DNA of 64,000 nt from NCBI GenBank assembly GCA_030424845.1, contig JAUHWC010000004.1:248001-312000 (forward strand), in the 5' to 3' direction. Positions 10,790-63,895 of this stretch are shown here, piece by piece. The stretch comes from Alphaproteobacteria bacterium. Its GTDB lineage: Bacteria; Pseudomonadota; Alphaproteobacteria; Sphingomonadales; Sphingomonadaceae. How positions within the stretch are numbered: position 1 is the stretch's first letter; the number at the start of each line of letters is the position of its first letter. The notes under the pieces were generated by a model. That model saw only the letters and a program-made list of their open reading frames with translations, was not told where the DNA came from and ran no database searches. The translations under genes were made by a program, and so were the position numbers.

Positions 10790-10804
10790 GCGACAGCTTG
10801 CGAC
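10790..10804 (+). promoter_or_regulatory. GCGAC-N5-GCGAC direct-repeat box, copy 1
   Basis: GCGAC-AGCTT-GCGAC is a tandem direct repeat with a 10-base period, the usual geometry of OmpR-family operators. It lies 33 bp upstream of the small membrane protein gene at 10837. Copies 2 and 3 are at 53919 and 63706. Confidence 0.5.
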
Positions 10805-10836
10805 ACAATACACGGTGTTCGACCTAGGAGGGTGAA

Positions 10837-11055
10837 ATGATCGCCTTTTTGAAGGCCATACCGCTGGGAATTTTCCTGACGATCGTGGTCTGCCTGTTCA
10901 TCGGCTCCGCCGGGTCCAGCGGCGGCTTCCTCAACATCTTCAAGTTCGACGTGGTGGTGCGCGAGCTGAGCCTGAATTTCGACCTCTACTGGTCCTGGCC
11001 GATGTTCCTTGCCGGAACCGGCCTGTCCTGGGCCATCCTCCACATGATGGATTGA
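10837..11055 (+). CDS. small inner-membrane protein, hypothetical
   Basis: This 72-residue protein has two hydrophobic segments: KAIPLGIFLTIVVCLFIGSA at residues 6-25 and a C-terminal one around WPMFLAGTGLSWAILHMM. A loop between them (FKFDVVVRELSLNFDLYW) could be amphipathic. The start is well supported by TAGGAGGGTGAA before the ATG. No family is recognised. It stands alone behind a GCGAC direct-repeat box, so it may be a target of the response regulator at 54713. Confidence 0.8.
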   Translation: MIAFLKAIPLGIFLTIVVCLFIGSAGSSGGFLNIFKFDVVVRELSLNFDLYWSWPMFLAGTGLSWAILHMMD

Positions 11056-53918: not shown

Positions 53919-53933
53919 GCGACAAATTGCGAC
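53919..53933 (+). promoter_or_regulatory. GCGAC-N5-GCGAC direct-repeat box, copy 2 (with a third half-site)
   Basis: GCGAC-AAATT-GCGAC is followed by ACA, and a further GCGACAA half-site lies at 53961-53967, about three helical turns on. A -10-like TAGAAC is at 53976-53981. This lies upstream of the EF-hand/response regulator/kinase operon and is identical over 15 bases to copy 3 at 63706. Confidence 0.55.
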
Positions 53934-54071
53934 ACAAAGGCCTTCGCGCGGCATACAGCTGCGACAATCGCCGCCTAGAACATCGAACATGGGCAACGGG
54001 GTGCCGCAATCCTCCCACCCCTTCAAGGCGGCACACCGTTGCTCTAAACCATGTCCCGAATGGAGAGTCCG

Positions 54072-54680
54072 ATGCGAAAAACCCTCACCCTGTCCCTCGC
54101 CGCGCTTGCGCTTTGCGCCGGCGGTGCCGCCGCGGCCCAGAACGCCACCCAGGTGCCCGAACGCGGGTCGATGCGCGGTGCCGAACAAACCCGCGAACGC
54201 GCGGAAATGCGCGCCACGCACATGTTTGTCCGGCTTGACGTGAACCAGGACGGCCAGATCAGCTCTGCCGACCGCGAAGCCCTCGCCAACCAGCGCTTCG
54301 ATGCCGCCGATGCGGATGGCGATGGCACCATCTCGCGCGAGGAATTCGCTGCCATCCGCGAAAACCGCCAGGAACGCATGGGCGAACGCCGCGAACGCCG
54401 CGCCGAAATGCGCGCCCAGGCCGGCCAGCGCAGCGCCGAAGGTGGTGAGCGCATGGCCCGCCGCGACGGCCGCCGTGGCGGCGCAATGCGCGGTGCACGC
54501 GGCTTGCTGCGCGCCGCCGATGCCGATGCCAATGGCGCGGTGTCGCAGGAAGAGTTCGTCAGCGCCGCACTGGCGCGCTTCGATGCCGCCGATGCGAACA
54601 ATGACGGGACCCTCACCCGCGAGGAGCGCCGCAATGCCCGCCCCGAAGGCAGGCATGGACGTGGCGGCGCAAGAGGCTAA
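54072..54680 (+). CDS. exported EF-hand (calcium-binding) protein
   Basis: This 202-residue protein has a signal peptide (KTLTLSLAALALCAGGAAAA, cleavage near residue 22) and four EF-hand-like calcium loops in two pairs: DVNQDGQISSAD and DADGDGTISREE near residues 57-90, then DADANGAVSQEE and DANNDGTLTREE near residues 155-190. A very Arg-rich linker with RRERRAEMRAQ lies between. It would bind Ca2+ in the periplasm. GGAGAGTCCG precedes ATG 54072. It is the first gene of an operon with a two-component system and may act as its accessory sensor. Confidence 0.85.
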   Translation: MRKTLTLSLAALALCAGGAAAAQNATQVPERGSMRGAEQTRERAEMRATHMFVRLDVNQDGQISSADREALANQRFDAADADGDGTISREEFAAIRENRQERMGERRERRAEMRAQAGQRSAEGGERMARRDGRRGGAMRGARGLLRAADADANGAVSQEEFVSAALARFDAADANNDGTLTREERRNARPEGRHGRGGARG

Positions 54681-54712: not shown

Positions 54713-55447
54713 ATGGGCGAACAGGCCGAAATCAAGCTGCTGCTGGTCGATGACGAAGCCAGCCTGCGCGAACCCCTGGCGGAGTATCTGGTCCGCCAGG
54801 GGTTCGTCGTCGAACAGGCTGCCGATGCATCCAAGGCGCGCAGCCTGCTGCTGGACGGCAGGCCGGACCTTGTCCTGCTGGACATCATGATGCCGGGGGA
54901 GGACGGCCTTTCGCTGTGCCGCCACTTGATCGAGGCCAAGCAGCTGCCGGTCATTTTCCTGTCCGCCAAGGGCGAGGCAACAGACCGTATCGTGGGGCTG
55001 GAAATCGGCGCGGACGACTATGTCGTCAAGCCGTTCGAACCGCGCGAGCTGGTGGCGCGCATCCGTTCCGTGCTGCGCCGGGCCAACAAGCAGGCACCAG
55101 CTGCCGAAGCCGATTCGCTGTATGAATTCGAAGGCTGGACGCTCGATCCGCTCAAGCGCCGCCTGACTGACCCGGAAGGAACGGTGATCCCCATATCATC
55201 GGCCGAGTTCCGGCTGCTCTGCGCCTTCCTTGACCATCCGCGGCAGGTACTCGACCGTGACCGGCTGCTGGACATGGTGCAGGGCCGCGAAGCCCATCTG
55301 TTCGATCGCGCGGTGGATAACCAGGTCAGCCGCCTGCGCCGCAAGATCGAGGAGGACAGCCGCGATCCCAAGTTGATCCAGACCGTCTGGGGCGGCGGCT
55401 ATCGCCTGGCAGCAGACGTCAAGCGCACGGCGCCGGAAAAGGACTGA
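54713..55447 (+). CDS. OmpR-family response regulator
   Basis: This 244-residue transcription factor has a receiver domain with acidic pair DDE (13-15), phosphoacceptor Asp57 in LVLLDIMMPGEDG, Ser84 in FLSAKGE and Lys106 in YVVKPFEPREL. The C-terminal winged-helix (Trans_reg_C) domain spans about 130-238 (FRLLCAFLDHPRQVLDRDRLLDM, then VDNQVSRLRRKIEED). Its stop overlaps the ATG of the kinase gene by one base, so they form a pair. The GCGAC direct repeat upstream of the operon is a candidate binding site for it. Confidence 0.95.
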   Translation: MGEQAEIKLLLVDDEASLREPLAEYLVRQGFVVEQAADASKARSLLLDGRPDLVLLDIMMPGEDGLSLCRHLIEAKQLPVIFLSAKGEATDRIVGLEIGADDYVVKPFEPRELVARIRSVLRRANKQAPAAEADSLYEFEGWTLDPLKRRLTDPEGTVIPISSAEFRLLCAFLDHPRQVLDRDRLLDMVQGREAHLFDRAVDNQVSRLRRKIEEDSRDPKLIQTVWGGGYRLAADVKRTAPEKD

Positions 55448-56853
55448 TGCGCCGCTTCCTGCCGAAGAGCCTGCTTGGGCAGATGCTGCTGGCCGTGGCG
55501 CTGGCGCTGCTGGTGGCACAGACGCTGTCCGGTTTCCTGCGCTTCAGGGCAGAGGAATTGCGGCGCGAAAACGGGCTGATCAATGCACTCGCCTTCCAAC
55601 TGGTGGCAGACCCGCGGGTCGATTACCGCACCGGTGAGCGCAGCAGGGAGACACCCCGCCAGGAACGCCGCCGGCTGCGCATCGAGCGCGCGCTGGCATC
55701 GCCGGTCCACAGGGGTGAGCGGCAGGATGCCGAACGGCTCGAACGGTTGCGCACGGTGCTGACCGAACAGGGCACGCAGATCGACCAGCTGGTGGTGCTG
55801 ACGCGCCCCGTGGCCGAAGACGATTACATCATGCGCAGCCTGCGCCGGATGCGCAGCGATTCCGACATAACCAATCGCGATGGCTGGGATGCCGAGGGTG
55901 ACATGCTCCTCGCCGGCCTCAAGCGCGAGGGGGAGGAGCAGTGGCTGGTGGCCCGCGTGCCGCTGCCCAGTGACGATCCGCGGCGGTATACCGGCATCAT
56001 CATCCAGACCCTGCTGATCTACATCATCCTTGTCGGCGGGCTGGCGCTGCTGCTGCGGCGGATCACCCGCCCGCTGGCCGCGCTGCGCAACCGCATGGAA
56101 ACCTTCGCCGCCACGCGCGAAACCACCGGCCAGCTCGAACCGTCAGGCCCGGAGGACACCCGCCGCCTGATCAGCGCGCACAACGCCATGGAGGCGCGCA
56201 TTGCCGCGCTGCTGGGCGAAAAGGACGTGATGCTGGGCGCCATCGGGCATGACCTGAAGACACCGCTGGCCGCGCTGCGCGTGCGCATCGAATCGGTCGA
56301 GGACGATGCCGAGCGCGCCAAGATGGCCGCCACGATCGAGGACATCACCAGCTCGCTCGACGATATCCTCTCGCTCGCCCGCGTGGGTCGCCCCAGCGAT
56401 CCGCTGGAACGCACCGAGCTTTCCGCCCTCGTCGCCTCGGTGGTCGAGGAATACGAGGACATGGGCAATGACGTGACGCTGGGCGAAACCCAGCGCATCG
56501 CCCTGCGGCTGCGCGCCACCTGGCTGCGCCGTGCGCTGCGCAACCTCATCGGCAATGCGCTGCGCTATGGCGAGAAGCCCGTGGTTTCGGTGCTCAAGGA
56601 TGGCGAACAGGCCGTTATCCGCATCGAGGATACCGGCCCCGGCATCCCGCAGGATGAAATCACCGACATGCTAGAGCCTTTCACCCGCGGCGAAGCATCA
56701 CGCAATCGCGAAACCGGCGGCGCGGGCCTCGGCCTCACGCTGGCACGCGCCATTGCCGAACAGCACGGCGGCACGCTGACGCTGGCCAACCGGCTGGGCG
56801 AAGGCAACGAAGTGATCGGGCTGCTCGCGGAAATCCGCCTGCCGCTGGGTTAA
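55447..56853 (+). CDS. membrane sensor histidine kinase
   Basis: This 468-residue EnvZ-like kinase has a first membrane helix at about residues 11-30, a periplasmic domain rich in Arg and Glu (31-182), and a second helix at about 183-204. A HAMP region follows, then the HisKA helix with [14 protein letters not shown] (His268) and a HATPase_c domain ([40 protein letters not shown]). It would phosphorylate the adjacent OmpR-type regulator in response to an envelope signal, perhaps calcium or the EF-hand protein. The stop overlaps the convergent ATPase gene through TTAA. Confidence 0.95.
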
Positions 56854-63705: not shown

Positions 63706-63720
63706 GCGACAAATTGCGAC
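63706..63720 (+). promoter_or_regulatory. GCGAC-N5-GCGAC direct-repeat box, copy 3
   Basis: GCGAC-AAATT-GCGAC is identical over 15 bases to the copy before the EF-hand operon. It ends 10 bp before a -35-like TTCAAA (63731-63736), which is 17 bp from TATATT (63754-63759), an activator-type position. Confidence 0.55.
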
Positions 63721-63730
63721 CTTTCATTCA

Positions 63731-63759
63731 TTCAAACGACAGGCGCCGATACCTATATT
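63731..63759 (+). promoter_or_regulatory. sigma-70-like promoter of the candidate small RNA
   Basis: TTCAAA and TATATT are separated by 17 bp. The predicted start is near 63766. Confidence 0.5.
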
Positions 63760-63765
63760 GTGACT

Positions 63766-63895
63766 TGTAAGAACGGCTGGTGGATGCGGGTTTCCCCCCT
63801 GTTGCCCGACCGCCCTCATGGCCCGCCTTACCAAGCGTGACGAACGCTAAGAACGGAAACCCCCGTCCCATTTGCCCCCGGGACGGGGGTTTTTC
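63766..63895 (+). ncRNA. candidate small RNA, ~130 nt, between lolA and xthA
   Basis: A transcript from the promoter above would run to a strong intrinsic terminator. It has C-rich stretches (GGTTTCCCCCCTGTTGCCC) able to pair with Shine-Dalgarno sequences and a nine-base direct repeat TAAGAACGG (63768-63776 and 63848-63856). Two very short ORFs are possible (18 codons from 63784, 10 codons from 63818 starting MARLTKRDER), but neither has a good ribosome-binding site. No known RNA family is recognised. Confidence 0.45.
63859..63895 (+). terminator. strong intrinsic terminator
   Basis: ACCCCCGTCCC (63859-63869) pairs perfectly with GGGACGGGGGT (63880-63890), followed by TTTTCTTT. It lies 64 bp before xthA and more than 180 bp after lolA, so it ends a transcript starting between them or a long lolA mRNA. 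Confidence 0.9.

Follow-up and report, generated by a model that had tools for sequence, protein, structure and literature searches.

A tandem 10-bp repeat very probably marks where an OmpR-type sensor-regulator pair controls its own operon and, in some lineages, a small RNA

Enterobacterial OmpR controls small RNAs (sRNAs) such as MicF and OmrA/B, and the pho box of PhoB is a direct repeat with an 11-bp period that replaces the -35 element about 10 bp before the -10 element. OmpR sites are characterized, in the relevant passages of PMC5559549, by AC pairs 10 nt apart, one of them inside GXXAC. Two envelope regulators of Caulobacter are also relevant here: ChvGI, which in the section of PMC9731502 devoted to it activates the sRNA ChvR, itself a repressor of a TonB receptor, and UzcRS, which is summarized in part of a review (PMC8963506) as a two-component system that responds to metals and has numerous targets in the envelope. 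A keyword search, mostly of open-access full texts, found no description of an operator, an EF-hand/OmpR/EnvZ-like operon and an sRNA like those reported below.

The window, that is, the whole 64,000-nt stretch of DNA analysed, contains a forward-strand operon encoding a secreted EF-hand protein (54072-54680, in a frame open from 54051; signal peptide MRKTLTLSLAALALCAGGAAAA read from the sequence), an OmpR/PhoB-family response regulator of 244 amino acids (54713-55447) and an EnvZ-like sensor kinase of 468 amino acids (55447-56853). The first matches Pfam EF-hand_5 (E=1.8e-21) and other EF-hand models; the regulator matches Response_reg and Trans_reg_C and has the helix DNQVSRLRRK in its DNA-binding domain; and the kinase matches HATPase_c, with HisKA below cut-off and two membrane helices by hydropathy (centred at residues 13-24 and 189-199). 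A regulator with receiver and winged-helix Trans_reg_C domains beside a transmembrane kinase, together with an operator of tandem direct-repeat form and 10-11 bp period before their own operon, places the locus among OmpR/PhoB-family two-component systems. The best NCBIfam models were OmpR for the regulator and EnvZ for the kinase (the latter below cut-off), with scores short of those for the E. coli equivalogs (OmpR NF007005, 244.1 versus a cut-off of 331; EnvZ NF007004, 160.6 versus 415). The closest named relatives of the regulator come from Altererythrobacter, Tsuneonella, Qipengyuania and Erythrobacter, and 137 of 246 sampled genomes of the order keep it at E<=1e-65. As argued below from comparative sequence data, the repeat before this operon is very probably the site from which the sensor-regulator pair regulates its own expression and also, in certain lineages, that of an sRNA.

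The original prediction had singled out the direct repeat GCGAC-N5-GCGAC, and we recovered its three exact forward-strand copies at 10790-10804, 53919-53933 and 63706-63720, the last two identical over 15 bases, as well as the additional GCGACAA at 53961. The motif itself needed correction: GCGAC-N5-GCGAC sits at the centre of a longer motif, GNKACAAWTYGCGACAAWT, composed of two 10-bp OmpR-type half-sites of the form GNKACAAWTY. Such a tandem 10-base direct repeat had been put forward as the usual operator form of OmpR-family regulators, and it agrees with the rule of GXXAC and AC spaced by ~10 nt in the passages on OmpR cited above. When both strands of the window were scanned with a matrix built on 88 sites from other genomes, congeners included, the three repeats obtained the three highest scores (26.4, 21.6 and 17.4 bits), followed by a score of 9.8.

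The highest-scoring site belongs to the operon promoter, which contains four half-sites starting at 53919, 53929, 53950 and 53961 (+0, +10, ~+31 and +42). Half-sites 1 and 2 (GCGACAAATT and GCGACACAA; 53919-53937) form the 10-bp direct repeat proposed as the operator of the regulator. Half-sites 3 (GGCATACA, from 53950) and 4 (GCGACA, 53961-53966, corresponding to the GCGACAA noted above) lie 11 bp apart within 53950-53966 and are followed by a likely -10 element, TAGAAC, at 53976-53981. This arrangement is conserved: 87 of 89 loci have a GCGACA-like half-site 4 (5 or 6 of 6 letters), which is at +42 in 75 and at +43 in 12; a conserved GG.A.A half-site starts 11 bp before it; and a TA-containing -10-like element begins 9 bp past it in 76 of the 87. 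Half-sites 3 and 4 cover the expected -35 position, which, by analogy with PhoB-type sites, suggests activation, so that the EF-hand/regulator/kinase operon is most likely controlled by direct activation, which amounts to positive autoregulation.

Conservation of the long motif was assessed at 90 loci, comprising the 30 top-ranked regulator matches from the search of 246 genomes of the order and 60 others (one of the 90, L333, is incomplete), the 60 having been chosen without most loci fetched for an exact pre-operon site and without the most divergent matches. A matrix refined from 12 seeds found sites above 8 bits in 89 of the 90 upstream regions. Their consensus, GNKACAAWTYGCGACAAWT, is a direct repeat with a period of exactly 10 bp, and the G and the ACA show almost no variation in either half. 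In five-fold cross-validation, which is slightly lenient because the seeds and site choice came from the same 90 loci, 88 of these Sphingomonadales loci scored above the maximum of 450 dinucleotide shuffles (15.2 bits) and 89 above the shuffles' 99th percentile, while the top reverse-strand score was 5.5. A sequence-model scan of 13 genomes of the genus listed the operon promoter once per genome, accounting for 13 of the 30 loci obtained. The exact long core, GCGACAANTTGCGAC, had 60 matches across the order compared to 20 for the reversed pattern. Across the whole class (385 genomes), we found 17 matches in 15 genomes versus 7 for the reversed pattern, and because only two of the 17 were at a regulator locus, the letters of the box appear to drift between orders though its form persists.

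To follow the box beyond these loci, we applied the matrix to 78 named regulator loci with a threshold of 11.7 bits, the 99th percentile of 1560 shuffles. The loci outside the order are the informative ones, because some Sphingomonadales loci may share species with the training genomes. On the forward strand, 20 of 21 Sphingomonadales-type loci passed (the exception being L030), as did 10 of 28 intermediate regulator loci, several of them from Rhizobiales (L041-L045, L047, L054, L060, L068 and, barely, L062), leaving 18 of the 28 without a forward site above the threshold; none of the 29 distant regulators (L071-L099, 36-45% identity) had one. The forward site lies 64-304 bp before the regulator start in six intermediate loci (L042, L043, L044, L047, L060 and L068). 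Reverse-strand passes numbered 0 of 21, 13 of 28 and 1 of 29, respectively, the last (L090) at 12.1 versus 11.7 bits. Separately, the strongest reverse-strand boxes, at 24 to 31 bits, were found near regulators of these other groups in L043, L046, L047, L052, L060 and L066, and such strong opposite-strand boxes near regulator genes suggest that a second gene is under divergent control. In L041, L042 and L055, the regulator and an EF-hand-like gene point away from each other (by reading), the box in L055 being weak.

Box and regulator also co-occur across genomes. The regulator was present at E<=1e-65 in 43 of 46 genomes with an exact core compared to 137 of 246 overall (P=9e-10, membership compared by hand). 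Two of the three exceptions (G317 and G353) have a 47-50% relative directly behind the box (L185 and L186), and in the third (G218) the match sits inside a gene (L160). Within the helix DNQ[VI]SRLRRK, residue N203 is found in 32 of 33 box-associated regulators versus 2 of 33 others, in sets hand-picked from the 78 loci with 13 intermediate or unclear ones left out, and both N203 and the box track phylogeny. Because the box is conserved with the regulator, within and beyond the order, and has the OmpR-family operator form, the autoregulation by the adjacent OmpR-type regulator that was originally predicted stands as the best reading, and autoregulation of the operon is very likely. We infer that the adjacent regulator is the binder of the box and that control is by activation; the explanation as a whole, with the box as the operator of this response regulator, is one in which we are confident, if short of certain.

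The original prediction had also assigned the box two further targets, of which the sRNA holds with reservations (8 of 30 promoters) and the 72-residue membrane protein does not (0 of 12 congeners). The sRNA lies between lolA and xthA at 63766-63894 on the forward strand, with its 5' end placed from the -10 element TATATT at 63754-63759, 48 bp past the start of the 21.6-bit box (63706-63724). It is predicted to fold into a 5' hairpin with a C-rich apical loop, TTTCCCCCCTGTTG, at 63791-63804, and alignment and folds place a AGCGTGACGAACGCT hairpin before an intrinsic terminator at about 63857-63892. A 286-base query had DNA matches in 136 of 199 family genomes, mostly around 63786-63894 and some of them marginal. 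In an alignment of 34 sequences, a TTCCCCCCTGTTG run, a GCGTGACGAACGC hairpin and the loop UUCCCCCCUGUUG are invariant, both partners have changed in four base pairs of the terminator and in one adjoining the loop, and 32 of the 34 folded 5' domains have a C-run in the apical loop (by inspection). At gathering score, 63766-63894 had no match in Rfam, the best below-threshold hit being at E=0.03 and 19.4 bits versus a gathering score of 40; the only gathering-level match of the window is a terC RNA (RF03067; 4094-4156, reverse strand; 63.5 versus 39.9 bits). The promoter of its own, intrinsic terminator and conserved exposed loop predicted for the locus are those expected of a base-pairing sRNA under a response regulator, and the sRNA presumably acts by base pairing. 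Sites complementary to the loop with <=2 mismatches numbered 22, one being the sRNA locus itself, compared to 9 for the control. The one candidate, a TonB-receptor mRNA with a G-run before its ATG (L401, where the start codon used is doubtful), was rejected as an sRNA target, the G-run being absent in 11 matching congeners.

How far the box extends to this sRNA bears on the strongest alternative, namely that the operon's own promoter is the only target and that the sRNA box and other sites are coincidental or lineage-limited. Among 34 sRNA promoters, comprising the best 30 DNA matches and four loci added because the box search had found them, 12 in six genera have a box above 8 bits (four from the genus of the window and four from g96), and the 22 without a good box by this measure favour the alternative. 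So does the model scan of the source genome, which at E<=5 listed eight sites with mostly weak E-values: the operon promoter was first at E=0.0085, the sRNA site had E=0.11 and the 10790 site E=1.25. Against it, 8 of the 30 promoters taken regardless of the box carry one, again across six genera, and the order-wide exact-core search, which is blind to position, also picked up this promoter in another genus, in three of its genomes (L176, L178 and L198). Moreover, all 12 sRNA boxes lie either 46-48 bp (7) or 58-59 bp (5) before the best -10-like hexamer, and two spacings about one helical turn apart suggest an activator acting from one face, although the spacing classes partly follow genus and ancestry because the 12 boxes are concentrated in two of the six genera. 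Overall, we consider a single-target system unlikely, and the sRNA is likely a second target of the box regulator.

Further candidate targets come from the 58 exact-core matches outside the source genome, whose surrounding genes were called from codon usage by a simple method that had 23 of the window's frames as its training set. These include 28 before the EF-hand/regulator/kinase operon (the kinase being beyond the end of some loci), three in the lolA-xthA interval upstream of the sRNA (all from g96), seven before RcnB-like secreted proteins (six of them from one genus), two after a SapC-like gene and before an apparent small RNA with a terminator, and 18 at other places, some inside genes. 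The RcnB-like proteins have R/D/E-rich repeats and start 112-159 bp past the box start in L184, L214, L216, L217, L219 and L221; in L222 the box is 75 bp before the called frame, which starts earlier. The Pfam RcnB match of the single protein checked was below cut-off. The gene upstream of the box in L168 and L170, which we take to be SapC-like, is followed in both (two genera) by a possible second small RNA, CCCTCATGGCCCG..., with a TTTTTT terminator about 60-200 bp past the box. L173 (G303) has a box upstream of an EF-hand gene that is situated apart from the genome's best regulator match, and the EF-hand protein may therefore be a target in its own right. A PQQ-dehydrogenase promoter has the box in the source genome and one congener, and a further site lies by SnoaL/MFS genes (C9:136802). 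We did not count a metallo-beta-lactamase-fold gene (G000 C2:38827, L351, L352 and L362) as a conserved target, because in all three genomes compared the site shares sequence with an open frame, a similar stretch occurs within a frame of L197, and the conservation may be coding. A 105-residue secreted protein by nrdR (box at C7:35747, 20.4 bits) was likewise set aside as lineage-specific at best: its two copies in G014, the only other one of 58 genomes to match strongly (8 more match weakly), are boxless, with a best score of -2.5 bits.

A second alternative is that a different conserved regulator of the same operon binds the box, co-conservation with the adjacent regulator being indirect. In its favour, sRNA promoters often share a second element, GTTCATT...GCAAGCC (by inspection), which is necessarily some other factor's. 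However, the box has OmpR form and tracks the regulator's promoter, standing before the EF-hand gene at most Sphingomonadales loci and a short way upstream of the regulator itself at several loci from other orders, and we judge this alternative improbable. The Caulobacter envelope regulators were also rejected as binders after comparing motifs with our matrix by eye, since the motif given for ChvI in the relevant section of PMC9731502 is TTGC-N3-GCAA and that given for UzcR in the review (PMC8963506) is CATTAC-N6-TTAA, both unlike the box. As a separate observation, the second element takes the form ~GTTCATT-N5/6-GNAAGCC over the -35 region in many sRNA promoters (L100-L129; about 63724-63745 in the window; by inspection) and is unlike any of the published motifs considered here.

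The bare pattern on its own is weak evidence, because its one-mismatch count is at chance level and it is not enriched genome-wide. The exact pattern occurs three times in the window versus 0.70 expected, with at least three copies in 2 of 100 shuffles; with one mismatch there were 17 versus 15.5 expected, and the genome-wide check proposed with the original prediction gave 19 matches in 2.83 Mb compared to 56 for the reversed pattern used as control. Even so, coincidence in GC-rich DNA has next to no probability as the source of the boxes, since conservation before orthologues far exceeds that in shuffles and the order-wide exact core outnumbers its reversal by 60 to 20. Chance is refuted for the copy at 53919 and is the best reading for the copy at 10790. 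The latter (10790-10808, forward strand, 17.4 bits), before the gene for the 72-residue membrane protein (10837-11055), is not conserved: the <=300 bases upstream of this gene scored 1.4 at best in 12 of 12 congeners, and the box is likewise absent in a thirteenth (L132). We therefore rejected this protein as a target; the 10790 box is probably outside the system and lineage-specific at best.

Returning to the adjacent regulator as binder, we propose that the EnvZ-like kinase phosphorylates it and that it then binds tandem 10-bp half-sites of the form GNKACAAWTY. At its own promoter it would occupy two tandem pairs, with pair 3-4 on the -35 region and the -10 element starting 9 bp past half-site 4, and would directly activate the EF-hand/regulator/kinase operon. 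The same operator would control the sRNA with the exposed C-rich loop in the genus of the window and some others, this sRNA being the presumed post-transcriptional arm, and the EF-hand protein may feed back on the kinase or on divalent cations. The full picture is more tentative, and we give it somewhat less than an even chance: an old alphaproteobacterial envelope or divalent-cation response in which an OmpR/EnvZ-like pair is produced alongside a periplasmic EF-hand protein from a self-activating promoter of four half-sites, with a C6-loop sRNA as output, to which some lineages would add a second sRNA and RcnB-like secreted proteins. If true, this would parallel OmpR and its sRNAs and would have a distinct operator code readable across orders. 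An uncharacterised two-component system would gain a readable operator, making its targets predictable from sequence, and would be tied to two further components: an sRNA family that is absent from Rfam and has an invariant loop, and a periplasmic EF-hand protein, possibly the system's partner in sensing.

Compared to known systems, half-sites 3 and 4 resemble the PhoB pho box in having an 11-bp period in place of the -35 element, but differ in sequence and are accompanied by an upstream pair. ChvGI with ChvR, as covered in part of PMC9731502, is similarly an alphaproteobacterial envelope regulator with an sRNA arm, but its ChvI motif (TTGC-N3-GCAA) differs and the kinase here scores 70.1 versus a ChvG cut-off of 740. 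UzcRS differs by its motif, CATTAC-N6-TTAA in the review's account (PMC8963506). Pseudomonas CarSR/CarO and EfhP are comparable in being a two-component calcium response and an EF-hand protein; the relevant part of PMC10574481 describes no EF-hand gene co-operonic with the pair. For EnvZ/OmpR, the likeness is in the half-site GNNACA and its 10-bp period, which resemble the consensus TTTTACTTTTTG(A/T)AACATAT given in the passages of PMC5559549, while the system here differs by its co-operonic EF-hand protein, other half-site letters, equivalog scores below cut-off and a conserved four-site promoter before its own operon. Based on these sequence comparisons, we regard the system as an OmpR-family regulon with a likely sRNA arm.
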